Source: Gemmatirosa kalamazoonensis
GTDB taxonomy: Bacteria > Gemmatimonadota > Gemmatimonadetes > Gemmatimonadales > Gemmatimonadaceae
Reading direction: 5' to 3'
DNA length: 64,000 nucleotides
Assembly: GCF_000522985.1 (NCBI RefSeq)
Contig: NZ_CP007129.1
Coordinates: 496,001-560,000 of the forward strand
Shown here: positions 34,833 through 51,222 of the stretch, piece by piece
Position numbering within the stretch: position 1 is the first letter of the stretch
How the letters are laid out: the number at the start of each line of letters is the position of its first letter
The notes under the pieces: model-generated
What the model was told of the DNA's origin: nothing
What the model saw: the letters and a program-made list of their open reading frames with translations, nothing else
Database searches by the model: none
Translations under genes and position numbers: made by a program

Positions 34833-34834
34833 CG

Positions 34835-36593: not shown

Positions 36594-36596
36594 GCG

Positions 36597-37238
36597 TCAG
36601 CTCCGCGCCGGCGCGACGGGCGGCGGCACCGGGGCAGCAGCGTGCGTCGCGGCGCGGTGCGCGACGTGCCACGGCCGCACCAGCAGCGCCATGACGCCGA
36701 GCAGGAACGCGACGCCGAGCAGGATGCCGCCCGCCGCCGGCCACGACGTGGCGACGAAGTTGAGCAGCGTCTTCGCGCCGATGAGCGGCGGCTGGTACGT
36801 CATGCCGGGGATGCTGATCGCCGCGCGCGGGTCGAGGTTGTGGCCGTAGTCGCGCTCCCACTCCCAGAAGTCGAACAGCCCCCACGCGCCGAAGGCGGCG
36901 AACGCGCCGAGCCACACGTGCAGCAGCCACCGGCGGCCCGTCGCCGCGGCAGCGAGCACGCCGACGATCAGCGCCGCGAGCACCCACGGCATGACCGTGA
37001 GCTCGGGGATCGCGTCGGGCACGATCTGCTTCATGCCGATGTAGTGATTCAGCTCGTTGATGTTCGCGAGATCCTGCGGCTGCACGCCCGTGATGGTGTG
37101 CACGCGGATCAGCATGCCGAGCCCCTCCGGGTACTGCGGCGCGACGAGCCCGATGCGCCACAGCGGGAAGACGTAGGCGCCGGCCAGCGCCGCCGCGGCG
37201 GCGACGAGCAGCAGGCGGGAAAGTCGAGGGAGCGTCAT
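36597..37238 (-). CDS. membrane protein of clade II nos clusters
   Basis: A 213-residue membrane protein with about four helices and a conserved-looking periplasmic loop (TITGVQPQDLANINELNHY, IGMKQIVPDAIPE) plus GLFDFWEWERDYGHNLDP. Similar membrane proteins accompany nosZ in clade II N2O reducers and may correspond in position to NosB of Wolinella; equivalence is not proven. It lies between nosZ (60 bases) and nosL (3 bases). Start at ATG 37238 directly before the first helix. Confidence 0.7.
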   Translation of the reverse strand: MTLPRLSRLLLVAAAAALAGAYVFPLWRIGLVAPQYPEGLGMLIRVHTITGVQPQDLANINELNHYIGMKQIVPDAIPELTVMPWVLAALIVGVLAAAATGRRWLLHVWLGAFAAFGAWGLFDFWEWERDYGHNLDPRAAISIPGMTYQPPLIGAKTLLNFVATSWPAAGGILLGVAFLLGVMALLVRPWHVAHRAATHAAAPVPPPVAPARS

Positions 37239-37298
37239 GGCCGTGAGGCGTTGGGCGTGGACTCCGACCGTCATCACGGCCGGAGTCCACGTCTCGGG

Positions 37299-39344
37299 TC
37301 AGTCGTTGCCGTGCTTGTGGGCCCGGGGAGCGGCGCTCCCGTTAGGCAGCCGCGCGAGCTGCGTGGCGGCGCGCGGGCTCGTGTTGGCCGACAGCGTGAC
37401 CGTCGAGCCGGCGGGGCTCACGCGGACGTAGCCCTGCATCTCCTGGTGGAGCGCGGAGCAGAAGTCGGTGCAGTAGAACGGGTACACGCCCGTCGCCGCC
37501 GGCACCCACTTCAGCGTCTTCGTCTCGCCCGGGTTCAGGATCAGCTCCGCGTTCGTCGCGCCGAGCACCGCGAAGCCGTGCAGGATGTCCCAGTCCTGCT
37601 CGATGTTCGTCACGTGGAAGTAGACCGTGTCGCCGAGCTGCACGCCTTCCAGGTTGTCCGGCGCGAAGTGGCTGCGGATCGCGACCATGTTCACGTCGAC
37701 GCGCTTGCCGGCGCGCTTGATGCCGCCCTGCGCCTCGGCCTTCGTCACGAACGGGTGCGTGTTCTCGGTGAGCTTGTAGAACTTGACCTGCTGCTGCTCG
37801 ATGAGCGACGCGGGGACCGCGTTCGCGTAGTGCGGCTCGCCGATCGTCGGGAAGTCGAGCAGGAGCTTGATCTTGTCGCCGCTGATGTCGTAGAGCTGCG
37901 CGCTCTGGGCGAGCTCGGGGCCGGTCGGCAGGTAGCGGTCCTTCGTGATCTTGTTCATCGCCACGAGGTACTTGCCCCACGGCTTCTTCGTGTCGCCGCC
38001 CGGGATCATGAGGTGGCCGACCGAGTAGTACGTCGGCGCGCGATCGAGCACCTCCCAGGTGCCGAGCTTCCACTTCACGACCTCGGACGAGATGAACATC
38101 GAGGTGTACGCGTTGCCGCGGCCGTCGAACTCGGTGTGCAGCGGACCGAGGCCGGGCTTCTGCACCTCGCCGGCGAGCACCGCCTGGTACTTCAGCACCG
38201 GGATGCCGTCGATCTCCGACTCGAACTGCTTGTCGGCGATCGCCTTCAGCAGCTTGGTGGCCGAGTGCACCGGGATCACCGTGGCGAGCTTGCCGCCGGC
38301 GACGATGTACTCGCCGGTCGGGTCGACGTCGACGCCGTGCGGCGACTTCGGCGTCGGCAGGTAGTAGACGAGGCCCGGGCACGTGCGCGGGTCGAGCATC
38401 GGCACGCTGGCCACCATCTCCGACTTCGCGGCGCGCGAGCCCTCGTCCATCCAGTTGTGCGCGTACCGGGTGTTGACCGTGCGCGCCTTCCCCTGCGCGA
38501 CGCAGCTCTCGGCCTGCTTGTAGTTCACGGCCGCGATGTAGTCCTTGTCGGCCTGCGAGGCGTTCGCCTCGAGCTTCGTGTACGCGCGCTCCGAGTTGTA
38601 CGACGTGAAGAAGAACCAGCCCTCGCTCGGCCCCTTGCCGGCGTGCCCGAGATCGTAGTCGTAGCCCGGCATGAGGATCTGGAACGCGATCCGCATCTTC
38701 GTCGGCTCGTCGGCCTTCACGAACGAGAGCGTACCCTTGAACGTGTCCTTGTAGCTGTCGATCGCGACGTCGCGGTTCTCGCCGGCGTCGCCGATCGGGA
38801 TCGAGAAGCGCGTCGCGCTCACGACGTAGCGGCCGTCGGGCGTGGTGAACGGCGACGCGTGGCCGCCGGCGGCGTTCGGGATCTGGACGATCTCGTCGGT
38901 CTCGAACGTCGTGAGGTCGATGCGCGCGATGCGGGGCGTGTTGTTGCCGTTGATGAACAGCCACTTGCCGTTCGGCACGCCGTCGGTCTGCGACAGCTCG
39001 GTGTGGTGCGAGTCGTCCCACGGGATGAACCCGTAGGTCGTCTCGAGCATCGGCTTCGTCTCCTCGTTGTAGCCCCAGCCGTTCTCGGCGTTCTGCGAGA
39101 ACACGGGGATCACCTTCAGGAGCCGGCCGGACGGCAGGCCGTACACGGAGACCTGGCCGCTGAAGCCGCCCGACATGAACGCGTAGTACTCGTCGTGCTG
39201 CCCGGGGGCGACGTAGACCTTCGACGCCGCGTCGCCGACGGCGAGGTTCGCGGACGGCGTGCCCGTCGTGCGGCACGCGAGGAACAGGAGGCCGCCTAAC
39301 AGCGCGGCGCCGCCGCCCACGAGCAGGGAGCGGGATGTCTTCAT
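37299..39344 (-). CDS. nosZ: nitrous oxide reductase, clade II (Sec-type)
   Basis: A 681-residue periplasmic multicopper enzyme that reduces N2O to N2. The N-terminus is a Sec lipoprotein-like signal (LLGGLLFLAC), not the Tat signal of clade I, which places it in clade II. The seven-blade propeller supplies CuZ histidines (DDSHHTE, GGHASPF, SPHGVDV and others) and the C-terminal cupredoxin has the CuA motif CTDFCSALHQEM near residues 620-635. ATG 39344 overlaps the stop of the Rrf2 gene by four bases (ATGA). Confidence 0.95.
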   Translation of the reverse strand: MKTSRSLLVGGGAALLGGLLFLACRTTGTPSANLAVGDAASKVYVAPGQHDEYYAFMSGGFSGQVSVYGLPSGRLLKVIPVFSQNAENGWGYNEETKPMLETTYGFIPWDDSHHTELSQTDGVPNGKWLFINGNNTPRIARIDLTTFETDEIVQIPNAAGGHASPFTTPDGRYVVSATRFSIPIGDAGENRDVAIDSYKDTFKGTLSFVKADEPTKMRIAFQILMPGYDYDLGHAGKGPSEGWFFFTSYNSERAYTKLEANASQADKDYIAAVNYKQAESCVAQGKARTVNTRYAHNWMDEGSRAAKSEMVASVPMLDPRTCPGLVYYLPTPKSPHGVDVDPTGEYIVAGGKLATVIPVHSATKLLKAIADKQFESEIDGIPVLKYQAVLAGEVQKPGLGPLHTEFDGRGNAYTSMFISSEVVKWKLGTWEVLDRAPTYYSVGHLMIPGGDTKKPWGKYLVAMNKITKDRYLPTGPELAQSAQLYDISGDKIKLLLDFPTIGEPHYANAVPASLIEQQQVKFYKLTENTHPFVTKAEAQGGIKRAGKRVDVNMVAIRSHFAPDNLEGVQLGDTVYFHVTNIEQDWDILHGFAVLGATNAELILNPGETKTLKWVPAATGVYPFYCTDFCSALHQEMQGYVRVSPAGSTVTLSANTSPRAATQLARLPNGSAAPRAHKHGND

Positions 39345-39799
39345 GGAGTGTCTCCGTCGATGACGGATCGGTGGAGGGAGGAGAGCGCTCCGGCGGCGCC
39401 CTCCGCGCCCCCGGTGAGATCGGCGACGGTGGTCGCGCCGAAGAAGGCGTGCACCTGTCGGGCGACCGGCGCCCAGCGCGTGTGCGCTTCGCAGGCGTGC
39501 GCGTCGCCGCAGGGGTGGTCGTGGAGCAGGCAGCGTGCAGTGTCGAGGCCCATGAACGGCGCCACGACGCGGTCGAGCGTCAGCTCCGAGGCCGGGCCGG
39601 CGAGCCGGAATCCGCCGCTCGGCCCGCGCGTCGAGCGCAGCACGCCGGCGCGGGCGAGCTGGTTGAGCGTCTTCGACAGGTAGTTGCGCGGGACGCCGGT
39701 GGTGCGGGCCAGCTCGGACACGTGCGTCCACGCCCCGGTGGGGCGGCCGGCGAGGTGCAGCACGGCGCGTAGCGCGTATTCGGCGGTGTTGCTCAGCAC
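39341..39799 (-). CDS. Rrf2-family transcriptional regulator of the nos operon
   Basis: A 152-residue Rrf2 protein: winged helix LSNTAEYALRAVLHLAGRP, recognition region GVPRNYLSKTLNQLARAGV, wing STRGPSGGFRLA, and three cysteines in CLLHDHPCGDAHAC that match the Fe-S ligand spacing of NsrR/IscR-type sensors. It probably reads NO or oxygen stress through an Fe-S cluster and controls the operon it begins. GTG 39799 has GGAG seven bases upstream; longer ATG starts at 39829-39832 were rejected as atypical. Confidence 0.82.
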   Translation of the reverse strand: MLSNTAEYALRAVLHLAGRPTGAWTHVSELARTTGVPRNYLSKTLNQLARAGVLRSTRGPSGGFRLAGPASELTLDRVVAPFMGLDTARCLLHDHPCGDAHACEAHTRWAPVARQVHAFFGATTVADLTGGAEGAAGALSSLHRSVIDGDTP

Positions 39800-39869
39800 G
39801 AGGTCTCCGGCGTGGTGTCTGCCATACATCATCGGCGAATCCGAAATGCCGGGCCGTAGGGCGCTCGCC

Positions 39870-39889
39870 GGAAATCGCACTCCGATTCC
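39870..39889. promoter_or_regulatory. imperfect palindrome upstream of the Rrf2-nosZ operon
   Basis: GGAAATCG-CACT-CCGATTCC, a near inverted repeat about 70 bases upstream of the Rrf2 start; a related half-site AATCCGAAAT lies at 39837-39846. Candidate operator for autoregulation; not a match to a consensus I can name. Confidence 0.3.
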
Positions 39890-39937
39890 CCGACAGCCGT
39901 GCCGGGGAACGGCGCGCGTGCCTAACACAGGCGAAAC

Positions 39938-39966
39938 GGCGGGGGCACCGAGCCGGTGCCCCCGCC
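39938..39966 (-). terminator. terminator of the YceI-porin operon
   Basis: Twelve-base perfect stem GGCGGGGGCACC / GGTGCCCCCGCC with a 5-base loop, followed on the minus strand by GTTTCG. It lies 60 bases beyond the stop of the porin-like gene and insulates it from the nos promoter region. Confidence 0.75.
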
Positions 39967-40026
39967 GTCCTGTCACCTCCGCCTCCTTGTTGGGAGTCTT
40001 CTGGATTCCTCGCACGCCCCGCTCGC

Positions 40027-41409
40027 TCAGAAGGCCACGGTGCCCTCGAGCATGAAGCCCTTGAACTGGGCGCCGTTGCGGATGTCCTTCGTCGGGAAGT
40101 CGTAGTACTTCTGGTTCACCCACTCGAGCTTCGTGAGCACCGTCGGGGTGACGAACCAGCCGCCGCCGACCTGGTAGCGCTTCACGCTGACGTCGTTCGC
40201 GATCCCGGCGAGCTTGCCCGACACGGTGTTGTAGCGGCCCGAGAGGTACACGTTCTCACCGAGCCCCCGCAGCGTCACCTCGTTCACCGTCTGGGTGATC
40301 GTGCGGAGCGCCGTCTCCGAGGCCAGGCGTCCCTTCGCCTGCTCGAAGTTGCCGAAGTACTCGAGGCCCCTGACCTTGAGGAACGGGTTCACGACCACCG
40401 AGTGCAGCGGGCCCGTGGGACCCGAGAACGGCTGCACCGCACCCGTCCAGGCCGTCGCCGTCTCGTCCGTGCTGTTCGTGATCACGCTGTAGTACCGGCT
40501 GCCGGCGCGGTCGCCCGAGAAGAGCACCTGGTTCGCCGCCTTGCTCTGCCCGTACCACGAGCCGGTGAGGCGTGCGCGGACGTCCTTCGTGAGCTGGCGG
40601 TCGATGCCGATCTTGCCGACGAACGCGGGCGAGCGCTGCGCGGCCTTCTGCACCATCCCCTTCTCCTCGCCGTTCGTCACGCCGCCCATCACGAACGCGC
40701 CCTGCGCGAGACCGCGGCCGCGGAGGTAGAGCTCACCGCCGATCTGCGGCACGAACGCGTCCATGATGTAGTTGCCGACGAGCGGGTTGAACATCGCGTT
40801 CCCGTTGTCGGTGCGGCGGAAGTGCGCGTCGCCGTAGTTGATCTCGAAGTGGCCCGCCTTGATCGTCACGTACTGCATCAACGTGTTCAGCGGCTGGAAG
40901 TCGATCGGCGAGTCGTCGACCTGCAGGTAGCCGTCCTTCACCCACGTCTCGTTGTGGTGGCGGGCCGACAGGTATGCGGTCATCGAGACGCGGATGCCCT
41001 TCGCGAGCTGCGCGCCGACGTAGGCGTTCGCGACGGCGTTGTTCGGCCCGTGGCCGATCTGGACGAGCGCGTTCGTGTTCGCGCCGTTGACGACGTTGGG
41101 CGCGGCGGTGTTCGACTGTCCGAGCCCCTGGAACTGCTGCGTGAACGCGGCGCCGAAGCCGAGCCGGAAGCCCGTGAAGGGGATGGGGTCGTCCTTCGGC
41201 GTCTCGAACACGTTGATGCCGCGCTTGTCGGCCGGACGCAGGCGCTGGAGCGTGATCGGCGGCAGGTTGCTCGGCTTCGCGGTCGACGGGGCCGCGGAGG
41301 TCGTGGTGTCGGCCTTCGAGGCGGGACCGTTTCCATCCTGCTGTGCCGCGAGCGGGGCGCCGGCCAGCAGCGCGGCCGCGAGTGTGACGATGGTCGTGTG
41401 AGTGCGCAT
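40027..41409 (-). CDS. porin-like outer-membrane beta-barrel protein (copy 1)
   Basis: A 460-residue exported protein: Sec signal (TLAAALLAGAPLAAQ), Ala/Thr-rich linker, then alternating beta strands ending in LEGTVAF with the terminal Phe needed for outer-membrane insertion. Phrases such as [15 protein letters not shown] and [19 protein letters not shown] suggest a phosphate-selective/alginate-type porin fold. It shares most residues with the product of 60694-62085. ATG 41409 has GGGAGAA upstream. The 45-base gap to the YceI gene before it suggests an operon. Confidence 0.75.
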   Translation of the reverse strand: MRTHTTIVTLAAALLAGAPLAAQQDGNGPASKADTTTSAAPSTAKPSNLPPITLQRLRPADKRGINVFETPKDDPIPFTGFRLGFGAAFTQQFQGLGQSNTAAPNVVNGANTNALVQIGHGPNNAVANAYVGAQLAKGIRVSMTAYLSARHHNETWVKDGYLQVDDSPIDFQPLNTLMQYVTIKAGHFEINYGDAHFRRTDNGNAMFNPLVGNYIMDAFVPQIGGELYLRGRGLAQGAFVMGGVTNGEEKGMVQKAAQRSPAFVGKIGIDRQLTKDVRARLTGSWYGQSKAANQVLFSGDRAGSRYYSVITNSTDETATAWTGAVQPFSGPTGPLHSVVVNPFLKVRGLEYFGNFEQAKGRLASETALRTITQTVNEVTLRGLGENVYLSGRYNTVSGKLAGIANDVSVKRYQVGGGWFVTPTVLTKLEWVNQKYYDFPTKDIRNGAQFKGFMLEGTVAF

Positions 41410-41454: not shown

Positions 41455-42072
41455 TCAGTTCGCTACCGACGTCACGGGCTTGAGGAGCAGGTCGAAGTTG
41501 ACGGTCACGAGCTCGTCGACCTTCATCGTGCCCATCATCAGCGAGGGCGGCTTGAGGCCGAACTGGGTCATCCGGATCTGGGCCGCTCCCGTCACGTGCA
41601 ACGTTCCGTTAGGCGCCGGCTCCGCCTGCGCCTCGAGGCTGATCGGCCGCGTCTGGCCGCCGAGGGTGAGCGTGCCGTTCAACGTGCCCTGCACGCCGGC
41701 ACTGCTCTTCGCGACGTCGTAGCCGCTCAGCTTGAACTCGATCGTCGGCGCGTCCTTCGCCTTCAGCGCCTTCAGCATGTGCTCGTTCATCGTGCCGTTG
41801 CCGCAGTCCATCTTCTCGGCCGGCACGGTCACGGTGGCCGTCTGCACGGCCTTCGTGCCGGCGAGCACCGCGGCCACGGCGCCCGGCGCCGCGTCGACGT
41901 CCACGGAGAACACGGGCGCCTTGCACGAGAAGCGGCGCACGGTGGACTTGCCGTCGATCCAGATGCGGCTCTGCGGCTGCATCACCAGCGGATCGTTGGC
42001 GGAGCGCCACGCGATCGCCGCGGGCGCGAGGCTGAGGAGCGTGGCGAGGGCGAGCCGAGTATTCGCGCGCAT
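41455..42072 (-). CDS. YceI-family periplasmic protein
   Basis: A 205-residue exported protein with signal (LALATLLSLAPAAIAW) and a YceI-like lipocalin barrel that in other bacteria binds isoprenoid quinones or related lipids: SRIWIDGKSTVRRFSC, IEFKLSGYDV, VQGTLNGTLTLGGQTRPISL, KVDELVTVNFDLLLKP. First gene of a likely two-gene operon with the porin. A perfect GTCGGG/CCCGAC palindrome lies 139 bases upstream. Confidence 0.8.
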   Translation of the reverse strand: MRANTRLALATLLSLAPAAIAWRSANDPLVMQPQSRIWIDGKSTVRRFSCKAPVFSVDVDAAPGAVAAVLAGTKAVQTATVTVPAEKMDCGNGTMNEHMLKALKAKDAPTIEFKLSGYDVAKSSAGVQGTLNGTLTLGGQTRPISLEAQAEPAPNGTLHVTGAAQIRMTQFGLKPPSLMMGTMKVDELVTVNFDLLLKPVTSVAN

Positions 42073-42210
42073 GGTATGCTCCGGTCGGTGTCTCGATCGC
42101 GGAGGTCGTCGCGATCGTCGTGCGTGCTGTCTGTAGTGAGGTTAGGCCGGCCGGTCGCCCCGCTCAGGAAGGGAAGCCCGGATCCTTCGTCGGGCGTCAG
42201 CGGCGGGCGT

Positions 42211-42227
42211 GTCGGGGATCGCCCGAC
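42211..42227. promoter_or_regulatory. palindromic operator candidate upstream of the YceI gene
   Basis: GTCGGGGATCGCCCGAC: inverted hexamers GTCGGG/CCCGAC around five bases. The exact reverse complement recurs at 49714-49730, and weaker forms occur at four other intergenic sites between 43 and 49 kb. Confidence 0.45.
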
Positions 42228-42244
42228 GTGCCGACGTCGGCGGC

Positions 42245-43048
42245 TCAGGGCAGCTGCGCGAGGTGGTGCTCCGCGGGATGGTTCTGCGCCTCGAGCGTCA
42301 TCGTCGTCTTGCCGATGACCGGCATCGTGCTCTCGATGCGCACGGGGATCCGGCAGTGGTCGTCGGTGAGGTCGAGCAGGATGACGCCCTCGCCGCGGAA
42401 GCGCCGCGGATCCTGCACCCGCATCTCCACGAGCACGGTGCGGAACGTCCCCGCCTCGGTCGTCACGCTGCGGCGGCCGAGCACGCGGACGCGCGTCGGG
42501 TTGCGGGCGGCGTCGAAGTGGCGCGCGTAGGTCACGCCGGTGTCGGTGAGCGACAGCGTGCGCAGGACGTACATGAACGACAGCTCGTCGAGCGGCGCCT
42601 CCGACGCGATCGTGCCGCTCGCGCCGTCTTCCGCCGCCCACCGGTGCGTCTCGGGGTAGAGCTCCACGCGCTCGTCGTGCTTCGAGAGCGGGTGCCGCTC
42701 GTGCTTGTGGAAGCGCAGCGACGTCAGACGCTCGGGATCGAGCCACGACTCCGTGTGGTCCACGGCGCCGATCGGGCCGACCTTCGCGTGGAAATCGAAG
42801 CGGAGCACCCACGCCGTCGTGCCACGCAGGACCTGCGGCGTGTCGACGACCATCGTCGTGCGCCCCACCGCGCCGACGCGTCCGGCGCGCACGCGGTACT
42901 CGAGCCGCTCGCCGACGAAGAACGGGAGGCGCGCGGCGCCCGACGAGCTCTGGGCGGTGGCGCCGCTCGCCGTGGTCAGCGCGGCGCCGAGGGCGATCGT
43001 CGCCCGGGCGATCCGTCGAGCCCACTCGCCGTACGCGTTCGTGCACAT
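42245..43048 (-). CDS. DUF3108 domain-containing exported protein
   Basis: A 267-residue protein with a signal peptide (ATIALGAALTTASGATAQ) and a DUF3108-type beta-rich domain: LPFFVGERLEYRVRAGRV, TESWLDPERLTSLRFHKHE, TYARHFDAARNPTRVRVLG and CRIPVRIESTMPVIGK. The role of this family is not established. ATG 43048 follows CGGAGACA. Its upstream region holds two CCCCCGAC-containing palindrome-like sites. Confidence 0.72.
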   Translation of the reverse strand: MCTNAYGEWARRIARATIALGAALTTASGATAQSSSGAARLPFFVGERLEYRVRAGRVGAVGRTTMVVDTPQVLRGTTAWVLRFDFHAKVGPIGAVDHTESWLDPERLTSLRFHKHERHPLSKHDERVELYPETHRWAAEDGASGTIASEAPLDELSFMYVLRTLSLTDTGVTYARHFDAARNPTRVRVLGRRSVTTEAGTFRTVLVEMRVQDPRRFRGEGVILLDLTDDHCRIPVRIESTMPVIGKTTMTLEAQNHPAEHHLAQLP

Positions 43049-43158
43049 GGTGTCTCCGTGGCCGGGTGTCACTCCCACACACGGAGGGTACGGCGAGCGG
43101 GCGGCGGTCACCGTCGGGGCTCGGGCACGGCGTCGGTCGAAACCCCCGACGGGGAGCC

Positions 43159-43175
43159 GTGGGGAAACCCCCGAC
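43159..43175. promoter_or_regulatory. operator-like site, variant form
   Basis: GTGGGGAAACCCCCGAC matches the 42211 palindrome at 13 of 17 positions. A second copy of the right half (GTCGAAACCCCCGAC) lies at 43136-43150. Both are upstream of the DUF3108 gene. Confidence 0.35.
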
Positions 43176-43181
43176 GCGCGG

Positions 43182-43943
43182 CTACTTGCGAATGAGGTCG
43201 ATGTCGAGCGCGAAGCGCACGTAGTCGGTGCGGTGCGCGAGACCGACCTTCTCCTCGACGCGCTGCTTGTACGTGTCCACGGTCTTCGCGCTGATGCCGA
43301 GCTGCTGGCCGATCTCCGGGCCGTTGTAGCCCTCGGCGACGAGGCGCAGCACCGTCTGCTCGCGCGCGCTGAGCGAGTCGAACGCCGCGCGCCGCGCGTC
43401 GGGCGCGGGGCCGTGTCGCACCGACTCGGCGAGCATCCGCGCCACCCGCGGTCGCACGTAGACGTCGCCCGACGCGACCACGCGGATCGCGTCGACGAGG
43501 TCACGCTCGGCGGCATCCTTCGCGAGGTAGCCGCTCGCGCCGGCGTCGAGCAGCGGGAGCAGCCGCTCCTCCTCGGTGTGCATGGTGAGCACGAGGACCT
43601 TCGGCGGCACCGGCAGCGCGTGCAGCGCGCGGGTCGCCGTCGTGCCGTCGACGCCGGGCATCTCGAGGTCCATGATCACGACCTCGGGGCCGAGCCGCTC
43701 GACGAGCGCGACGGCGTCGCGGCCGTCGGCGCCCTCCCCCACGACGACCACGTCGGGGACGCCGGCGAGCAGGGCGCGGATGCCGGCGCGCACGACGGCG
43801 TGGTCGTCCACGATCACGACGCGGATCGGCTCGTCGCGCATGGCGACGCCGCGGCGCACGTAGGGGCGGGCGGCGAGCGTGAGGCCTAACGCCTCGAGGT
43901 CACTGCCGGGCGGCAGCATCGGCGTGTGGGTGGTCCGGGTCAT
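43182..43943 (-). CDS. NarL/LuxR-family response regulator
   Basis: A 253-residue regulator: receiver domain from residue 40 (RVVIVDDHAVVRAGIRALL, phospho-Asp92 in VIMDLEMPG, conserved Lys in GYLAKDA) and a C-terminal LuxR helix-turn-helix (LSAREQTVLRLVAEGYNGPE, ISAKTVDTYKQRVEEK). The 35-residue N-terminal extension is unusual, but its ATG has GGAGGATC upstream. It pairs with the kinase encoded 119 bases upstream. A GTCGGG-N5-CCCG site precedes the gene, consistent with autoregulation. Confidence 0.9.
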   Translation of the reverse strand: MTRTTHTPMLPPGSDLEALGLTLAARPYVRRGVAMRDEPIRVVIVDDHAVVRAGIRALLAGVPDVVVVGEGADGRDAVALVERLGPEVVIMDLEMPGVDGTTATRALHALPVPPKVLVLTMHTEEERLLPLLDAGASGYLAKDAAERDLVDAIRVVASGDVYVRPRVARMLAESVRHGPAPDARRAAFDSLSAREQTVLRLVAEGYNGPEIGQQLGISAKTVDTYKQRVEEKVGLAHRTDYVRFALDIDLIRK

Positions 43944-44018
43944 GAGATCCTCCGCGAGGTGTGTGACGCCGAGTGTCCCGGCGCCGACCTACGCTCGCCT
44001 GCTCGCCCGCGTCCGCCC

Positions 44019-44035
44019 GTCGGGCATCTCCCGCA
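44019..44035. promoter_or_regulatory. operator-like site upstream of the response regulator
   Basis: GTCGGGCATCTCCCGCA keeps the CGGG-N5-CCCG core of the 42211 palindrome. Located 76 bases upstream of the regulator start in the gap to the kinase gene. Confidence 0.3.
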
Positions 44036-44062
44036 TCTCCGGCGCAGGATTCCCCGATGACC

Positions 44063-45154
44063 TCAGGGCGCGATCGGGACGGATGCGCGGATCCGCGTGC
44101 CGCGACCCGGCGCCGCGTCGATGTGGACGCGCCCGTTCACGAGGTCGACGCGCTCGCGCATCGCGAAGAGTCCCATGCCGGGGCGGCGGGCTTCGGCGTC
44201 GGCGAGCGAGAACCCGTCGCCGTCGTCGCGCACCTCGAGCACGAGCGCGGCGTGGTCGCGCGCCAGACGGACGTCGGCCGTGCGCGCGTGCGCGTGCCGC
44301 TCGACGTTGCGCAGCGACTCCTGCGCGACGCGATACAGCGCCGCCATCACCTCGGGCGACGCGCCGTCCGCGACGTCGGGCGCCGCGGTGACGGTCACCT
44401 GCAGGTCGCTCCGCTCGCTCATGGTGCGCGCGAGCCATTGCAGACCCGGCACGAGCCCGAGGTCGTCGAGCACCCGCGGATGCACGGTGTGCGACAGCGC
44501 GCGCACCTCCTCCAGCACCGTGCCGGCGAACGCGCGCAGCTCCGCGAGGCGGGCCGTGGTGGCGGGATCGGTCGCGTCGCGCGCGGCGGCGGTGAGCTGG
44601 TACGCGAGCGCGGCGATCGACTGCGCGACCGAGTCGTGCAGCTCGCGCGCGATGCGGGAGCGCTCGGCGTCCTGCGCGCGCATGGTCTGCGCGGCGGCGG
44701 CCCGGAGGCGGTCGCGGTCCGATGCCAGCCCGTCGAGCAGGAGGTTGAGCGTGCAGCCGAGTCGCGCGAGCTCGGCGTCGGCGACCGGCGACGGCACGAC
44801 GCGCGCGCCGAAGTCGCCGCGCCACACGCGCGCCGCGACCGCCTCGATCTCGCGGACCGGACGCAGCGCCAGCACGACGAGCATGCCGTTGAGCAGCAGC
44901 GCGAGGCCGAGCGCCACGGCCAGGATCTCGACGCCGCGCGCGCCGCGCAGCGCATCCGGCGTCGTCAGGAGCGCGACCGCGGCCGCGAGCGCGACGAGGA
45001 CGTTCGCGCCGACGAGCTTCGCGAGCAGCGACACCCCGAGGACGCGGCGCAGCCAGCCGGCGCGCGGGGCCGTGTTAGGCACGCCGACGGCGCGGCGCAG
45101 CACGGGCCCGCCGGTCGACGCCGGCTCCCAGCCTTTCTTCACGATGACCGTCAT
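44063..45154 (-). CDS. sensor histidine kinase (HisKA_3, NarX/LiaS type)
   Basis: A 363-residue kinase: two membrane helices close together (residues 42-64 and 76-97) with almost no periplasmic loop, a HAMP-like segment, dimerisation helix with phospho-His173 in RIARELHDSVAQS, and an HATPase domain (AQESLRNVERHAHA, VRDDGDGF, GMGLFAMRERV). The lack of a sensor loop suggests it reads a membrane or cytosolic signal, or relies on the PAS protein encoded upstream. Cognate to the regulator at 43182-43943. Confidence 0.88.
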   Translation of the reverse strand: MTVIVKKGWEPASTGGPVLRRAVGVPNTAPRAGWLRRVLGVSLLAKLVGANVLVALAAAVALLTTPDALRGARGVEILAVALGLALLLNGMLVVLALRPVREIEAVAARVWRGDFGARVVPSPVADAELARLGCTLNLLLDGLASDRDRLRAAAAQTMRAQDAERSRIARELHDSVAQSIAALAYQLTAAARDATDPATTARLAELRAFAGTVLEEVRALSHTVHPRVLDDLGLVPGLQWLARTMSERSDLQVTVTAAPDVADGASPEVMAALYRVAQESLRNVERHAHARTADVRLARDHAALVLEVRDDGDGFSLADAEARRPGMGLFAMRERVDLVNGRVHIDAAPGRGTRIRASVPIAP

Positions 45155-45246
45155 GGCGAGGACGATAACGCGGCCCGCCGGGCGGCCCGGTCGGGGGAGC
45201 GCTGATTCGCTGTGCGCATCCGACCCGTGCCGCGTGAGGCGATTCC

Positions 45247-45657
45247 CTACAACCGGGCGAGCGACTCCACCATCGGCTCCAACGCCTCGGACCACTTCCG
45301 GTCCGTGACGTCGGCCATCGTGAGCACCGCACCGTCGATCGCATCGAGGCTCGCGCCGAGCGGCGTCACGCTCACGCTCGCGTAGCGGCGTCGGCCCGTG
45401 GTGCTCCCGAGCTCGATCTCCTCGTCGCGCACGACCTCGCCGGTGAGCAGTGCGCGGCCCAGCAGCGAGCCGACGGCGTCGGGCAGCGCGGCAACGTCGC
45501 GCCGCGCCGCCGCGTTCGCGTACACCAGTCGGCCCTGCCGGTCGGCCATGAACACGGCGACCTCCAGCTGCTCGAGGAGCGCGCGCAGCGCCGACGGCCC
45601 GAAGCACGAGGCGTCGTCCGCGACCGAGCGTTCGCGGAGGGTAGTGTCGATCGGCAT
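45247..45657 (-). CDS. stand-alone PAS domain protein
   Basis: A 136-residue protein that is one PAS domain: LRALLEQLEVAVFMADRQGR, LVYANAAARRDVAAL, GRRRYASVSVTPLGAS and AVLTMADVTDRK. No output domain, so it may supply sensing to the loop-less kinase encoded 92 bases downstream. ATG 45657 follows GAGGATC. Ligand unknown. Confidence 0.78.
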   Translation of the reverse strand: MPIDTTLRERSVADDASCFGPSALRALLEQLEVAVFMADRQGRLVYANAAARRDVAALPDAVGSLLGRALLTGEVVRDEEIELGSTTGRRRYASVSVTPLGASLDAIDGAVLTMADVTDRKWSEALEPMVESLARL

Positions 45658-45734
45658 GGGAGATCCTCGGTGACGTGTGCGCCAATCGTGCGCCGGCCGC
45701 CACGCCAGCGCCGTAGGCGAACCCCCGCGCTCGT

Positions 45735-45751
45735 GAAGGGGATCGTCCGGC
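45735..45751. promoter_or_regulatory. operator-like site between PAS and ATP-grasp genes
   Basis: GAAGGGGATCGTCCGGC matches the 42211 palindrome at 13 of 17 positions and lies in the divergent promoter region of the two genes. Confidence 0.28.
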
Positions 45752-45843
45752 AGCGAAACGCCGCCGCGCCGCCAAGTTGGGCCGCGGTCCGCCGCACCAC
45801 GCACCGACGTCACGGTGCCCGCGCATGAGACGTGGGAGCGATC

Positions 45844-47439
45844 ATGCCCGACTCGCCAACCGAGCGCACGAACGACCGGCCGCCCCGTGCGGCACCGATG
45901 CCGGGTTCACCGGACGAGCGGCGCGCGTTCGCCGATCTGCAGCGGGGGCTGGCGCCGATGTACCGGCGAATCTTTCCCGATCCGCTCGCGCCGCGGACCG
46001 TCGTCGTCGTGCCCAGCATGTCGCTCGACGCGGAGGCGCTGACGAAGCTCGTCGGCGCGTCGCACTACGAGGAGCGGCTGCTCTGTCTGCTCATGCTGCT
46101 CCGGCTGCCGCACACGCGTCTGGTCTACGTGACGAGCCAGCCGATCGCTCCGTCCATCATCGACTACTATCTCCACCTGCTGCCGGGCGTCCCGGTGAGC
46201 CACGCGCGCCGGCGCCTGACGCTCCTGTCGTGCGGCGACGACTCGCCCGCGCCGCTGACGCGCAAGATCCTCGACCGGCCGTGGCTCGTCGACGCGATCC
46301 GCGCGGCGATCGCGGACCCCACGACCGCGCACGTCAGCTGCTTCAACGCCACGGCGCTCGAGCGCACGCTCGCCGTGCGACTCGGCGTGCCGCTGTACGC
46401 GTGCGATCCGGCGCTCGCGGATCTCGGGACGAAGAGCGGCAGCCGCGAGGTGTTCCGCCAGGCGGGCGTCGCGATGCCCGACGGACACGAGCGCCTGCGC
46501 GACGTGGACGACCTGGTCGACGCGCTGGTCGCCCTCAAGCGGCGCCGACCGCTCCTGCGCCGCGTCGTGATCAAGCTCGAGGAGGGGTTCTCCGGCGAAG
46601 GCAACGCCGTCCTCGCGCTCGACGGCGCGCCTAACGGCTCGGGCCTCGCGCGGTGGCTGCGCGCGGCGCTGCCCGCACGGGCGCGCTGCGTGGCGCCGGG
46701 CGAGACCTGGGAGAGCTATCGCGCGAAGCTCGCGCGCATGGGCGGCATCGTGGAGGCGTTCGTCGAGCACGGCGACGCCGGCTCGGCATGCTCCCCGTCG
46801 GTGCAGTGCCGGATCGACCCGCTCGGCCGCGTGCAGATCGTGTCCACGCACGACCAGGTCCTCGGCGGACCGACGGGGCAGGTGTTCCTCGGGTGCGCGT
46901 TCCCCGCCGATCCGTCGTGCGCCGCGGGGCTGCACGAGAGCGGTCGACGGATCGCGGAGGTGCTGCGCGACCGCGGGGCGATCGGCCGCTTCGCCGTGGA
47001 CTTCGTGTCGACGCGGCGCGGCGCGGCGTGGGACCACCGCGCGATCGAGATCAACCTGCGAAAGGGCGGCACCACGCATCCGTACCTGACGCTGCAGTTC
47101 CTGACGGACGGCGCGTACGACCCGGCGACGGGACTCTACCACACGCCGACGGGCCAGCCGTGCTACTACGTCGCGTCGGACAACCTGCACGACCCGGCGT
47201 ATCGCGGGCTGGCTCCGGAGGACCTGTTCGACATCGTGGGCAACGAGCGGCTGCACTTCGACGGAGCGACCGCGCGGGGCGTCGTGTTCCATCTCCTCGG
47301 CGCGCTGTCGGATCACGGAAAGCTCGGCGCCGTGTGCATCGGCCCGACGCGCGAGCACGCGCAGAAGCTCTACGACGACACGGTGGACGCCCTCCAGCGC
47401 GTGGTGGGCGCGGCGCGCACGCCCGTGCGCGCGGCGTGA
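45844..47439 (+). CDS. PGM1-like ATP-grasp peptide ligase
   Basis: A 531-residue ATP-grasp enzyme that resembles the peptide ligase PGM1 of pheganomycin biosynthesis. Evidence: ATP-site strand RRVVIKLEEGFSGEGNAVLA, VQCRIDPLGRVQIVSTHDQ, metal-binding EINLRKGGTTHPYLTLQFL, and a C-terminal module ending in GKLGAVCIGPTREHAQKLYD, the PGM1-type ligand-binding tail. The N-terminal 180 residues (VVVVPSMSLDAEALTKL, CLLMLLRLPHTRLVYVTSQP) are the accompanying non-catalytic domain. Such ligases join a carboxylate to an amine using ATP; substrates are unknown here, and no other biosynthetic enzyme is adjacent. ATG 45844 has GGGAGCG upstream. Confidence 0.75.
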   Translation: MPDSPTERTNDRPPRAAPMPGSPDERRAFADLQRGLAPMYRRIFPDPLAPRTVVVVPSMSLDAEALTKLVGASHYEERLLCLLMLLRLPHTRLVYVTSQPIAPSIIDYYLHLLPGVPVSHARRRLTLLSCGDDSPAPLTRKILDRPWLVDAIRAAIADPTTAHVSCFNATALERTLAVRLGVPLYACDPALADLGTKSGSREVFRQAGVAMPDGHERLRDVDDLVDALVALKRRRPLLRRVVIKLEEGFSGEGNAVLALDGAPNGSGLARWLRAALPARARCVAPGETWESYRAKLARMGGIVEAFVEHGDAGSACSPSVQCRIDPLGRVQIVSTHDQVLGGPTGQVFLGCAFPADPSCAAGLHESGRRIAEVLRDRGAIGRFAVDFVSTRRGAAWDHRAIEINLRKGGTTHPYLTLQFLTDGAYDPATGLYHTPTGQPCYYVASDNLHDPAYRGLAPEDLFDIVGNERLHFDGATARGVVFHLLGALSDHGKLGAVCIGPTREHAQKLYDDTVDALQRVVGAARTPVRAA

Positions 47440-47466
47440 TCGCAGGCAGGTCGCCGAGTCGACGCC

Positions 47467-48018
47467 TCAGCGCAGGGTCGCGTTGTACCACCACACGGCG
47501 CGGCTCAGATGCCCGTCGGCCGCGAACTGCAGCGGCACGCTCACCGCGAACGCCGCGGCGCCCGCACCCAGCACGATGCTTCCGCCGCGATCGAGGCGGC
47601 CGGCCGCGAGCGCGCGCACGCCACCGACCGCGAGCAGCAGCGCGCCGCCGTCCGTCAGCGCGCTGGCCTGCCGCCGCACGCGGACGGCGCGCGCCGCGTA
47701 GTGCGCGGCCGAGTCGTGCGCGGCGAACAGCGGCGGCAGCGGACGCGCGCGGAAGAAGCCCAGCGTCGCGACGTGCGCGCCGGACGACCCACGCACCACC
47801 GCGAGGCCGTTCCACACCGGCGCGATGCCGAGCGCGCAGCGGACGTAGGGACACGCGCGGCTCGTGTCCGCACGCGACGGCGTCGGGCCGGAGTCGACCG
47901 CCGTGCCCTGCGCGCCGGATCGTGCCGCCGCGCCGAGCAGCGCGGCGAGGAGGGCCGCGCGCGTACCCGCGTGCGTACCCGCGTGCGTCATGGTGTCGCG
48001 AAGCCGCGTCATGGACAT
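47467..48018 (-). CDS. hypothetical exported protein
   Basis: A 183-residue protein with a signal-like N-terminus (ALLAALLGAAARSGAQ) preceded by a small repeat (THAGTHAGT) encoded by a duplicated GCGTACCCGCGT unit. The mature part has two cysteines in ACPYVRCALGIAPVW and two hydrophobic stretches (GGALLLAVGGVRALAAG, SIVLGAGAAAFAVSVPLQFA). No family recognised. Convergent with the ATP-grasp gene, 27 bases apart. Confidence 0.55.
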   Translation of the reverse strand: MSMTRLRDTMTHAGTHAGTRAALLAALLGAAARSGAQGTAVDSGPTPSRADTSRACPYVRCALGIAPVWNGLAVVRGSSGAHVATLGFFRARPLPPLFAAHDSAAHYAARAVRVRRQASALTDGGALLLAVGGVRALAAGRLDRGGSIVLGAGAAAFAVSVPLQFAADGHLSRAVWWYNATLR

Positions 48019-48113
48019 GGACGTGAGATCCCCTCGTGTACGCGGCACACGCCGCACCCGCGCAACGTCGGTCCCCGCGCGCGCGCGCACCGTCGGGTGA
48101 ATGGGCCGACCTC

Positions 48114-48130
48114 GCGCGGGATTGCCCGAC
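48114..48130. promoter_or_regulatory. operator-like site upstream of the HdeD-like gene
   Basis: GCGCGGGATTGCCCGAC matches the 42211 palindrome at 13 of 17 positions; a second imperfect palindrome, GTCGGGTGAATGGGCCGAC, lies at 48092-48110. Both sit about 100-140 bases before the HdeD-like start. Confidence 0.33.
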
Positions 48131-48232
48131 GCGGCATCGGTCATCGGCCGATGGCCGCGTGGCCGACATCGCGAAATCATGCAGGGGCGACGACCTGCGA
48201 AGCCGGCCGTCGACCACACCGGGGGGCCGACC

Positions 48233-48907
48233 ATGTCCGCCATCCATCATGAGCTCGCGCACGTCGCCACCGAGACCGACCGCCGCGTCACGCGCGCCGG
48301 CGAGCACCATCACATTCGATGGCCGGGCGTCGCGCTGCGCGCTGCGGCGGCCGTCGTCGTGGGTCTCGGCACGCTCGTGCTGCCGGAGCTGTCCATCGCC
48401 GCGCTGCTCGCGCTGTTCGCCGGCTACACCCTCGTCTCCGCCGCCGCGGCGGTGAGCGTCGCGCGCGAGCTCGCGCGGCGACACGAGCGGGCCTGGCCGT
48501 TCCTCGTCTACGGACTCGCGGCGGCGCTCGTGTCGGTGGTGCTGCTCTCGTGGCCGACGGCGCTCACCGGTGCGCTGCTGGGCGCGCTCGCCGTCTGGAT
48601 GGCGCTCGCCGGGACCTCGGAGCTCGTGCTCGCCACGCAGCTGAGCCGCGTGCTGCCGCATGCGCGCCTCGTCGCCGCCGTCGGCGCCACCTCGGTGATC
48701 GCCGCGGGCGCGTTGCTCGCGCAGCCGGCGGGGGCCGCGGCGACGGCGGCGCGCGTGATCGGCGTGTACGCGCTGCTGTCCGGGCTGTTCCTCGCCGGGC
48801 TCGCGGTACGGCTACGCCGCGAGCAGCACGTGCTTCGACGTCGCGTGCAGTCACGAGCCGTCCGACGGCACGACGTCACGCCGCGGCTCGACGTGCCTCG
48901 CCCGTGA
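48233..48907 (+). CDS. HdeD/DUF308-family membrane protein
   Basis: A 224-residue membrane protein with six helices arranged as the DUF308 repeat (GVALRAAAAVVVGLGTLVLP, then FAGYTLVSAAAAVSV and so on), similar to the acid-stress protein HdeD. ATG 48233 follows a GGGGGG stretch. The last 32 bases overlap the 3' end of the convergent DUF2225 gene. Probably part of the stress regulon of this region; exact role unknown. Confidence 0.75.
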   Translation: MSAIHHELAHVATETDRRVTRAGEHHHIRWPGVALRAAAAVVVGLGTLVLPELSIAALLALFAGYTLVSAAAAVSVARELARRHERAWPFLVYGLAAALVSVVLLSWPTALTGALLGALAVWMALAGTSELVLATQLSRVLPHARLVAAVGATSVIAAGALLAQPAGAAATAARVIGVYALLSGLFLAGLAVRLRREQHVLRRRVQSRAVRRHDVTPRLDVPRP

Positions 48908-49546
48908 GCCACTCGCTCGGCCGGTCGCGCTGCTGGACCGCGAGCGTCACGAGCCACCGCTGCCCGGTCGCGTCGACGATCTCGTCGGCGACGCGGTCGA
49001 ACCACGCGCGCGCGCGCGCGCCGCATCGCCGGCGCGCCGCCAGAGCTCTCCGACGAGGTACGTCACCACCGCGCGGCGCTCGCGCGCCACCTCGTCGTAG
49101 AGCGCGAGCGCACGCTCGAACGTTCGCGCCGCGCGACGCCGGAAGAACCGTTCGGCCTCGACGTCGCCCTCGTCGATGCAGCACCACGCGGCCCGCAGCA
49201 GGAGGTCGGCGACGGCGGCGTCGCCGTCACCGCGCCGCGCCGCGATGTCCGCCGCGGCCTCGTACTTCTCGGACGCCGCGACGCGGTCGCCCCGCGACGC
49301 CATCACGCCGTCCAGCGCGGCCGTCGAGGCGCCGGTGACGACGTCGCACGCGAAGTCGTCGCGAGGACCCGCGAAGCCGCACGCGCCGCACAGCGCGACG
49401 AGGTACGCGACCGGCTCGGGGCCGTCGACGCGACGGTGAAAGTCGGTGCTCGTCCGGGCGCGCGCGTCGCTCTCCTCGGGCGCCGCGGCCGAGAACCATG
49501 TCCCACACACCGGGCACTGCAGCGTGATCTCTCGTGAAGCGCGCAT
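48876..49546 (-). pseudogene. DUF2225-type zinc-ribbon protein, frameshifted
   Basis: ATG 49546 begins a DUF2225-like protein: ITLQCPVCGTWFSA, then DFHRRVDGPEPVAYLVALCGACGFAG (two CxxC pairs, a probable zinc ribbon) and a TPR-like helical part. At the (CG)8 run (49005-49020) the frame ends in the unlikely GSTASPTRSSTRPGSGGS, whereas the adjacent frame continues naturally as AWFDRVADEIVDATGQRWLV and on to a stop at 48876. One extra CG unit would explain this. Either a sequencing/assembly slip or a real slippage mutation. Confidence 0.65.
49005..49020. repeat. (CG)8 dinucleotide run at a frameshift
   Basis: Eight CG units inside the DUF2225 gene, exactly where the coding frame changes. Gain or loss of units would switch the C-terminal 45 residues in or out of frame. 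Confidence 0.85.
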
Positions 49547-49871
49547 CGTCCGTCCCGGCGACGTCCGGCCGGCCTCCGCTGTCGGTGACATCCGCGCAGG
49601 CGTCGGAGAGACATTCACCGCGCTGCCGCGACTGTCGGCGAGAATGCCGTTCGCGGTCGGATGATTCCATCGGGGGCTTCCCGAACGTGGCGCCCAGCGT
49701 CGCCCGCCACGCCGTCGGGCGATCCCCGACACGAGCGACGCTCGCGACGTCGGCGAGCGCCGGCGCGACGGAACCACGGCGTGTCCGTGACTGCCCGACA
49801 CCGGCCGGCCGCCTCGTCCGGCACGTTAGGCGGCGTCCACGCACGCCCTCGCTCGGTGGGAGAACCGCACG
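49547..49871. other. divergent promoter region of the Usp cluster
   Basis: 325 bases between divergent genes with no convincing ORF. Holds the exact operator-like palindrome at 49714-49730 and a CGTTAGGC site at 49825-49832. Confidence 0.4.
49714..49730. promoter_or_regulatory. palindromic operator candidate, exact second copy
   Basis: GTCGGGCGATCCCCGAC is the exact reverse complement of the 42211-42227 site and lies 141 bases before the first gene of the Usp cluster. Confidence 0.45.
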
Positions 49872-50246
49872 ATGTCGATCGCCCTCATCACCCGCGCGCC
49901 GTCGGCCGAGGACGCCGGGATCGCGCCGACGTCATCCGAGCGTGGCTCGGAGGTCGCCGAGCGCTGCCTCCGTCGTCTCGACACGGCCATGGCCCGCCCG
50001 TCGCCGGAGACGGCCGCGGCGCTGCGGGCCGCGGTCACCGATCTCGTCGACGAGATGCGCGCACGGGGCCTCTCGCGCGACCAGGTCGTCGGCGCCGTGA
50101 CGGCCCTCGCGCGCGAGCACACGCTCGGCAGCGGCGTGCTGCGTCTCAGCGGCCGCACGCCGTCGACCGCGTCGAGCCCCGCGGCGTTCGACGCGCGGCT
50201 CGCGCAGTGGTGCACGCGGGCGTACTGCGACGACGCGTGGTGGTGA
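49872..50246 (+). CDS. small hypothetical protein of the stress cluster (124 aa)
   Basis: A 124-residue soluble protein with a long helical centre (TAAALRAAVTDLVDEMRARG, LSRDQVVGAVTALAREHTLG) and a C-terminus with two cysteines (WCTRAYCDDAWW). No family recognised. Twenty-eight bases before the tandem Usp gene, so it is probably co-transcribed and stress-related. Confidence 0.6.
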   Translation: MSIALITRAPSAEDAGIAPTSSERGSEVAERCLRRLDTAMARPSPETAAALRAAVTDLVDEMRARGLSRDQVVGAVTALAREHTLGSGVLRLSGRTPSTASSPAAFDARLAQWCTRAYCDDAWW

Positions 50247-50274: not shown

Positions 50275-51222
50275 ATGTCCTCACTGTCCATACCGAACGG
50301 AGCGTGCGCGCTCCCGGACCGCGTCACGGCGCCCGGGCCCATCGTCGTGGGCACACCAGGCGACGAGGGCGACGCCGCGCTCGAGACGGTGCGACGCCTC
50401 GTCGCGTACGACGGCCGCGCCGTCTCGGTCGTCTCCGCGCTGGAGCTTCCGACGCTCGACGTGAGCGTCGCCGGCGTGCCGTACGTGCCCGACGTGGAGG
50501 AGTACGCCGCCGCCCGCCGCGAGCGCGTCGCGCGACAGCTCCGCGCCGCCGGCGAGGTGCCTAACACGTGGCCCGTCACGGTGAGCGGCGACGATCCGGC
50601 GCACGCGATCGCCGACGCCGCGCGCGCGGCGAGCGCGTCGCTCATCGTCGTCGGCGCCGGCCACCACGACGTGACGGCCCGCCTGTTCGGCGAGGTCGCG
50701 GTACGCGTGGCGCGCCACGCGCCCTGTCCGGTGCTCGCGATCGCGCGGGAGCCGATGCGCGTGCCGCCGCACGTCGCCGTCGCCGCGATCGACTTCAGCG
50801 CGTCGAGCGTGATCGCGGCGCGGGCCGCGCGCGACCTGCTCGCGCCCGGCGGCACCCTGCACCTCGTGCACGTGTGGCGGCGCCACGCGGTCGACACGCC
50901 GGCGCACGCCGAACAGGACGCGGCATACGAGCGCGCCCTCCCCGAGCGCTTCGCGCGCGTCGAGCGCGAGCTGCTCGACCATCCGCGCGACATCGCGATC
51001 GTGCCGGCGTCGCTGCAGGGCGACCCGGTCGAGCGCCTCACGGCGTTCGCGTGGTCGCACGTCGCCGACGTGATGGCCGCCGGCCGGCAGGGGCACACGT
51101 TGCTCGAGCGGCTGTTCGTCGGGCGTGTCACGACGGGGCTGCTGCGCGCGGCACCGTGCGCCCTGCTCGTCACGCCCGAACCGGCGCTCGGCGCCGCGGA
51201 CCTCGTCGCCTCGAACGCCTAA
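50275..51222 (+). CDS. tandem-domain universal stress protein
   Basis: A 315-residue protein of two Usp domains: PIVVGTPGDEGDAALETVRR through LIVVGAGHHDVTARLFGEVA...CPVLAIARE, then HVAVAAIDFSASSVIAARAA through ADVMAAGRQGHTLLERLFVG...ALLVTPE. The ATP-loop pattern is retained in the first domain and partly in the second. The site GGAGGG precedes the ATG. Similar in layout to the tandem Usp encoded at 54885-55850. Confidence 0.85.
   Translation: MSSLSIPNGACALPDRVTAPGPIVVGTPGDEGDAALETVRRLVAYDGRAVSVVSALELPTLDVSVAGVPYVPDVEEYAAARRERVARQLRAAGEVPNTWPVTVSGDDPAHAIADAARAASASLIVVGAGHHDVTARLFGEVAVRVARHAPCPVLAIAREPMRVPPHVAVAAIDFSASSVIAARAARDLLAPGGTLHLVHVWRRHAVDTPAHAEQDAAYERALPERFARVERELLDHPRDIAIVPASLQGDPVERLTAFAWSHVADVMAAGRQGHTLLERLFVGRVTTGLLRAAPCALLVTPEPALGAADLVASNA

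Follow-up and report, generated by a model that had tools for sequence, protein, structure and literature searches.

Genes and palindromes at the locus

The stretch of DNA analysed here (the window, 64,000 nucleotides) is C3:496001-560000 of the Gemmatirosa kalamazoonensis genome, which comprises 7,479,215 bases in four contigs; the replicons named below are C2 (5,311,527 bases), C3 (1,106,233 bases) and C4 (1,040,503 bases). Coordinates without a prefix are window positions. We were concerned with a 17-bp palindrome that recurs between genes of the window, and with its proposed binder, a NarL-type response regulator encoded among them. The genes around the palindromes are as follows.

41455..42072, minus strand: yceI, conserved putative target (Pfam YceI)
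42245..43048, minus strand: DUF3108 gene, putative target (Pfam DUF3108)
43182..43943, minus strand: NarL-type response regulator, proposed binder (Pfam Response_reg and GerE)
44063..45154, minus strand: histidine kinase (HisKA_3, HATPase_c, sub-threshold HAMP)
45247..45657, minus strand: PAS protein (Pfam)
45832..47439, plus strand: ATP-grasp protein with PGM1_C (Pfam)
48233..48907, plus strand: HdeD-like DUF308 gene, possible target (Pfam DUF308)
49872..50246, plus strand: 124-aa gene, no Pfam match, at the head of a putative Usp operon
50275..51222, plus strand: universal stress protein gene (Pfam Usp)

A sequence-only reading of the window had listed six such sites, all between genes, and had assigned them to the promoters of the yceI, DUF3108, response regulator, PAS/ATP-grasp, HdeD-like and Usp-cluster genes. 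By our own gene calls, on which intergenic status rests throughout, all six are indeed intergenic. The pattern search confirmed both exact copies that had been described, GTCGGGGATCGCCCGAC at 42211-42227 and the same 17-mer in reverse complement at 49714-49730; the likeness of the two places extended to 30 nt (42199-42228 against 49713-49742, 90%). Compared with the arms of this 17-mer, 43159 had one mismatch and 44019 two; no match within two mismatches was found at 45735 or 48114.

Sites were scored with a matrix trained on other genomes only, as described in the following section. The background was made up of 376,104 positions in coding DNA and 47,655 in other intergenic DNA.

42211..42227, minus strand: predicted operator, exact arms, 18.0 bits, 138 bp upstream of yceI
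43159..43175, minus strand: predicted operator, 16.6 bits, 110 bp upstream of the DUF3108 gene
44019..44035, no strand assigned: unsupported site between the kinase and regulator genes, 8.5 bits
45234..45250, minus strand: predicted operator, 14.9 bits, 79 bp upstream of the histidine kinase-response regulator operon
45735..45751, no strand assigned: unsupported site between the PAS and ATP-grasp genes, 7.3 bits
48114..48130, plus strand: weak site between divergent genes, 10.8 bits, 102 bp before the HdeD-like (DUF308) gene
49669..49685, plus strand: marginal site in the promoter region of 49714, 9.1 bits
49714..49730, plus strand: predicted operator, exact arms, 18.0 bits, 141 bp upstream of the 124-aa gene, then the Usp gene
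49783..49799, plus strand: weaker site in the promoter region of 49714, 11.0 bits

The scores of 42211, 49714 and 43159 were equalled or exceeded nowhere in the background (0/376,104 coding and 0/47,655 other intergenic positions). Such scores were found for 45234 at no coding and one other intergenic position, and for 48114 at three and four, respectively. Two candidates were rejected as members, namely 44019 (17 coding and 13 other intergenic positions with equal or higher scores) and 45735 (36 and 24). Three of the six first-listed sites were therefore strong, one was weak and two did not rise clearly above background. The assignments to yceI, the DUF3108 gene and the Usp cluster were retained, that to the HdeD-like gene is weak, and those of 44019 to the regulator and 45735 to the PAS/ATP-grasp genes were lost. 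The site at 45234..45250, which shares 4 bases with the end of the PAS gene, was absent from the earlier list. It has counterparts before the regulator's operon in other genomes, and homologous yceI promoters keep a site about as far from the gene as 42211 is. A suspected second motif at 43137 scored -0.3 bits with the matrix and was discarded.

The motif beside regulator homologues in other genomes

Matches to the regulator at E <= 1e-50 were present in 89 of 201 Gemmatimonadales genomes. The regulator sample comprised 40 loci around such matches, three of them paralogues of G. kalamazoonensis, plus L016, making 41 loci. The three paralogue loci were excluded from the motif training set, which contained 38 loci with 99 intergenic segments (20.4 kb) at most 2.5 kb from the regulator. 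Expectation maximisation with a palindromic 17-bp model gave GTcGGGgAaTcCCCgAC from these segments. The 8 best of 250 seeds taken from the sequences themselves all converged on it (likelihood 120.6), against likelihoods of 48-58 on four shuffled sets, for which fewer seeds were used (60 each).

Without expectation maximisation, a plain search of the 41 regulator loci gave 13 matches to TMGGGN5CCCKA in 87,170 intergenic bases and two in 711,612 coding bases; one of the 13 intergenic matches lies on the chromosome of G. kalamazoonensis. In 19 control stretches of relatives (40,271 intergenic and 339,729 coding bases) there was no intergenic and one coding match. Seven patterns with altered arms or spacer gave 0-2 intergenic matches at the regulator loci.

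Distribution in the G. kalamazoonensis genome

The whole genome was scanned with patterns only, and the matrix was applied to sampled stretches, part of which had been picked around exact pattern matches. The exact arm pattern occurs at 8 places in 7.48 Mb. Seven are on C3, and four of these, all intergenic, fall in C3:538-568 kb (C3:538211, 545714, 560358 and 568361). Two of the four had defined the pattern, which leaves two of the six other matches in about 0.4% of the genome. Matches in coding DNA were seen at C3:587391 and C2:4309200. With one mismatch allowed, the arm pattern was found at 77 places genome-wide and its reverse at 19.

Beyond the window the matrix gave 19.3 bits for C3:568361, 12.9 bits for C3:560358 and 20.9 bits for C2:2195448. 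C3:560358 is flanked by an L,D-transpeptidase gene and an SDR gene. The gene that follows C3:568361 encodes Usp-DUF5335, and downstream of it come DUF6064, HSP20 and VIT1. A further site (C3:592144, 14.9 bits) lies 144 bp before a 2-oxoacid oxidoreductase gene. The description of the locus as a stress regulon agrees with the sites at yceI, Usp and the Usp-DUF5335/HSP20 neighbourhood.

At 14 bits or more, five sites were counted in the 5,095 intergenic bases of the island C3:537-577 kb. Elsewhere there was one in 47,655 sampled intergenic bases and one in the 9,836 of the paralogue loci, while the 461,126 coding bases had none. Equal frequency inside genes, which the sequence-only reading had set against its own proposal, was not what was observed. 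Among 500 column-permuted matrices none reached the five island sites at 14 bits (mean 0.06, maximum 2) and none the observed six at 12 bits, and one reached the observed nine at 10 bits.

Chance palindromes in GC-rich DNA would be in keeping with one result: with up to two mismatches, the arm pattern was not enriched in the window (23 observed vs 20.3 expected), and mismatch counting there was dropped as evidence. Chance is contradicted by the independent and permuted matrices, the coding DNA, the control loci and the conservation across genomes, and we regard its probability as negligible.

Genes behind the sites in relatives

A pattern search added 14 loci to the 41 around the regulator, and at these 55 loci 48 intergenic and 10 coding sites of at least 13 bits were detected. 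By manual count, 22 of the 41 regulator loci carry such a site before the regulator gene or before a kinase or multicopper oxidase gene leading into it. At the same threshold, sites stand before two-domain multicopper oxidase genes at six loci, one of them on the G. kalamazoonensis chromosome, before nosZ at five loci and before Usp genes at four. A cytochrome oxidase subunit II gene lies behind a site in one case among the relatives. The multicopper oxidases were considered as NirK and rejected, with 62-71 bits for NCBIfam Cu_nitrite_red vs a cut-off of 296.

nosZ and yceI were then examined as genes in their own right. The nosZ query was a Sec-dependent NosZ (TIGR04246 915.6 bits vs cut-off 625), matched in 92 of 201 genomes, and the 30 best-scoring loci were taken. 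For yceI, matched in 55 of 148 genomes, the 30 best-scoring loci with one yceI per genome were taken, of which 29 were usable, the window included; one of them, L256, also belonged to the motif training set. An upstream site of at least 11 bits was found at 18 of the 30 nosZ loci (18/20 in the window's family, 0/10 in a second family) and at 21 of the 29 yceI loci, against 4 of 145 control genes. In 17 of the 21 yceI cases the site lies 108-144 bp before the start. Sites before nosZ were present in 18 of 23 nosZ genomes with a regulator match (E <= 1e-50) and in none of the seven without; such a match was found in 20/20 nosZ genomes of the window's family and in 3/10 of the others. Of the 36 genomes covered by both the yceI and the regulator search, 13 have yceI at most 16 kb from a regulator match on the same contig.

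The homologue in Halobacillus

All 11 Halobacillus loci carry the palindrome, and it is the best conserved block of the promoter. In the alignment, which was anchored on the match, the intergenic DNA is poorly conserved except for an AAAAT-MRGGGAA-YRCCCCTA-like block around the palindrome, followed in most loci by TATGAT-like DNA. In L026 the distance from the centre of the palindrome to TATGAT is 31 nt (manual count). If TATGAT is the -10 element, the centre would lie near -44, a position of activators that touch the -35 region. In L019, by our own reading of the translations, the homologue has as neighbours a small gene that is GAF-like and one for a PAS-histidine kinase. Also outside Gemmatimonadota, a site in L058 was called intergenic, yet it lies inside a long open frame and was not counted.

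The motif might also be bound by an unrelated transcription factor that controls regulator genes among others, and it is true that some regulator loci have no site nearby. We consider this improbable: the motif recurs beside the regulator across genera and in the promoter of the Halobacillus homologue's operon, and the seven nosZ genomes without a regulator match all lack it before nosZ.

The regulator, its kinase and its paralogues

The 43182-43943 protein has a receiver and a GerE (LuxR-type) domain, both over the cut-off (PF00072 89.4 bits, PF00196 57 bits). VraR, NarL and DevR are among its relatives with solved structures, with DevR below VraR and NarL in score. The adjoining gene, 44063-45154, encodes a kinase with HisKA_3 (56.1 bits) and HATPase_c (48.2 bits). 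A HisKA_3 kinase next to a NarL/FixJ-type regulator is the usual, not an obligatory, arrangement. A Pfam search of the kinase recognised no sensor domain, neither GAF nor PAS, and the signal cannot be read from it for that reason.

On the evidence as a whole, the palindrome is very probably where the 43182-43943 regulator and its subfamily bind DNA. The sequence-only reading had named it the operator of the local NarL-type regulator, and this prediction has gained from the de novo recovery beside homologues, from the own-operon sites and from the Halobacillus promoter.

Several points weigh against it. In G. kalamazoonensis the pattern GTNRGGNNWNNCCYNAC occurs at 11 places, six in C3:538-568 kb, vs two for the reversed control, but it had been widened to admit the known sites; the limits of the island were likewise set after the sites had been seen. 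The strict pattern GTMGGGNNWNNCCCKAC was found in 20 whole relatives at 14 places in 11 genomes (nine intergenic) vs nine for the reversed control, so that a genome-wide excess is not clear there. The loci examined for nosZ and yceI were the best-scoring 30 of each search, and at 14 bits their counts fell to 10/30 and 12/29, with 2/145 for the controls. The co-occurrence of nosZ sites with the regulator is confounded with taxonomic family, and the nosZ of G. kalamazoonensis itself has no operator upstream (best 3.5 bits in 39301-40060). For 15 of the 37 regulators with a KTV[DE]TYKQR helix, the intergenic DNA within 3 kb holds no site of 13 bits. Outside Gemmatimonadota there was no such site near the regulator at most of the 68 scored loci. 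The genome also encodes three further paralogues of the regulator, two with the same KTVDTYKQR helix, which could share the sites.

The last point leads to a different assignment within the same subfamily, in which mainly a paralogue (C4:133640 or C2:2196698) acts on the sites or several paralogues share them. These are the two with the same helix (67% and 55% identical to the window's regulator, respectively), and the best chromosomal site observed, at 20.9 bits, stands before a multicopper oxidase-regulator pair on C2. On C3, however, the sites cluster around the C3 regulator and one is directly upstream of its own operon. We regard the paralogue assignment as possible but rather unlikely.

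The recognition helix was also tried as a sharp predictor of sites and given up: sites accompany 22 of 37 KTV[DE]TYKQR regulators and one of five others. The closest paralogue (67%; L135:9637-11644, C4:133637-135644) adjoins a hybrid kinase (HisKA plus receiver domains) rather than a HisKA_3 kinase, and the hybrid kinase gene is preceded by a site of 13.5 bits. On C2 (L136:8586-10366) the two-domain multicopper oxidase gene runs directly into the paralogous NarL-type regulator gene. The pair recurs in L164; in L142, L147, L150 and L162 a kinase gene lies in between.

With the 43182-43943 regulator as the binder, the kinase 44063-45154 would phosphorylate it, and each GTMGGG half of GTMGGGNNWNNCCCKAC would be occupied by one GerE helix-turn-helix of a regulator dimer. 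From operators about 80-140 bp before the start codons the dimer would switch promoters on, acting as an activator and not as a repressor. The putative regulon would comprise the kinase-regulator operon itself, yceI, the DUF3108 gene and the Usp operon in the window, and beyond it the Usp-DUF5335 gene, with DUF6064, HSP20 and VIT1 downstream, and the 2-oxoacid oxidoreductase gene. The candidate targets that recur across the family (yceI and nosZ, the genes for two-domain multicopper oxidases and Usp, and the operon of the regulator itself) point to low oxygen or nitrogen oxides as the most likely signal. The best reading of the sequences is thus a predicted 17-bp operator, GTMGGG-N5-CCCKAC, of a NarL/NreC-like regulator with a low-oxygen/N-oxide and stress regulon.

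Comparison with known systems

The system can be filed, at most, as a NarL/FixJ-family system that is NreC-like. NreBC of staphylococci and bacilli, which responds to low oxygen and nitrate, shares the NarL/FixJ-type regulator; an N-oxide-linked target may be nosZ, which has sites upstream at 18/30 loci of relatives but none in G. kalamazoonensis. The neighbours of the homologue in Halobacillus L019 resemble NreABC, and there the palindrome lies in the promoter. The NreABC kinase has a PAS domain with an Fe-S cluster, whereas the window kinase has no PAS domain and the PAS gene at 45247-45657 is separate from it. Next to the window kinase we saw no NreA-like gene. NarL of enterobacteria, which controls anaerobic respiration, has the same domain layout. 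Its heptamers, TACYNMT in a 7-2-7 arrangement, are unlike the GTMGGG-N5-CCCKAC operator.

The sequence-only reading had compared the sites in role to DosR boxes. According to PMC5069765, OsdR of Streptomyces recognises the DevR/DosR element, with the consensus AGGGCCGATCGGCCCT, and has Usp and PPDK genes among its targets. DosR/DevR and OsdR resemble the present system in having a NarL-family regulator, a palindromic GGG...CCC operator, a regulon clustered round the regulator and Usp genes, and OsdR also in having a site before its own gene (PMC5069765 for OsdR). The analogy in role is consistent with the nosZ and Usp sites in relatives. The comparison fails in spacing, with 5 nt between GGG and CCC here and 8 in the OsdR consensus, and in the sensor, as the window kinase lacks a GAF (haem-binding) domain; nosZ and yceI are also among the genes with sites in relatives. 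The system was therefore not filed as DosR.

A true dormancy regulon of the DosR type, complete with DosR boxes and haem sensor, would account for the Usp, HSP20 and PPDK genes of the neighbourhood, and Usp and PPDK genes are among the OsdR targets near osdR (PMC5069765). It is very unlikely given GGG-N5-CCC in place of GGG-N8-CCC, a kinase without GAF and the rank of DevR below VraR and NarL. Upstream of the PPDK gene, which the window holds besides its Usp genes, no site reaches 9 bits.

A literature search that covered few subscription papers brought up none on this regulation in Gemmatimonadota, and the string GGGGATTCCCC was absent from the literature matches listed. Of the 201 Gemmatimonadales genomes searched, 92 have a nosZ-like gene, whose enzyme removes nitrous oxide, and Gemmatimonadetes are particularly abundant in soils (PMC3974934). 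Naming both an operator and a regulator opens the control of N2O reduction across the phylum to direct tests, and the matrix can be used to find further targets.

The nos cluster beside the island

The window contains the following nos gene.

37299..39344, minus strand: nosZ, nitrous-oxide reductase (Pfam nos_propeller; 71% identical to a nosZ passing TIGR04246)

It belongs to a nos cluster beside the island (34098-39832) with genes for an ABC ATPase, NosD, a sub-threshold NosL, an unmatched protein, NosZ and an Rrf2-type protein. The Rrf2-type gene leads the cluster, and its end overlaps the called nosZ start by 4 bp. This nosZ is without a site, unlike 18 of the 20 nosZ loci of its family, and the cluster may be under other control, perhaps that of the Rrf2-type protein.

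With some reserve, we favour a family-wide regulon of Gemmatimonadaceae in which nosZ, multicopper oxidase, YceI and Usp stand under one NreC-like system with an operator traceable to Bacillota. In G. kalamazoonensis the megaplasmid regulator would then head a stress island, and the adjacent nos operon, which begins with the Rrf2-type gene, would have lost its operator.

Other observations

A search of a plasmid collection gave no match. The 45832-47439 product is an IQCH-like ATP-grasp protein with PGM1_C and a distant likeness to BesA amino-acid ligase (171 bits, cut-off 750).

The site C2:2195448 (L136:8448-8464) contains GGATCC, a match to RGATCY; the strong window sites contain none. RGATCY is one of three N6-adenine methylation motifs reported for strain KBS708 (PMC3974934). 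The remaining exact palindromes, C3:40275 and C3:93333 (L091, L092), are intergenic, have identical 57-nt contexts and lie 53,058 bases apart, a spacing that fits the 53-kb tandem repeat resolved in this element according to the genome paper (PMC3974934).

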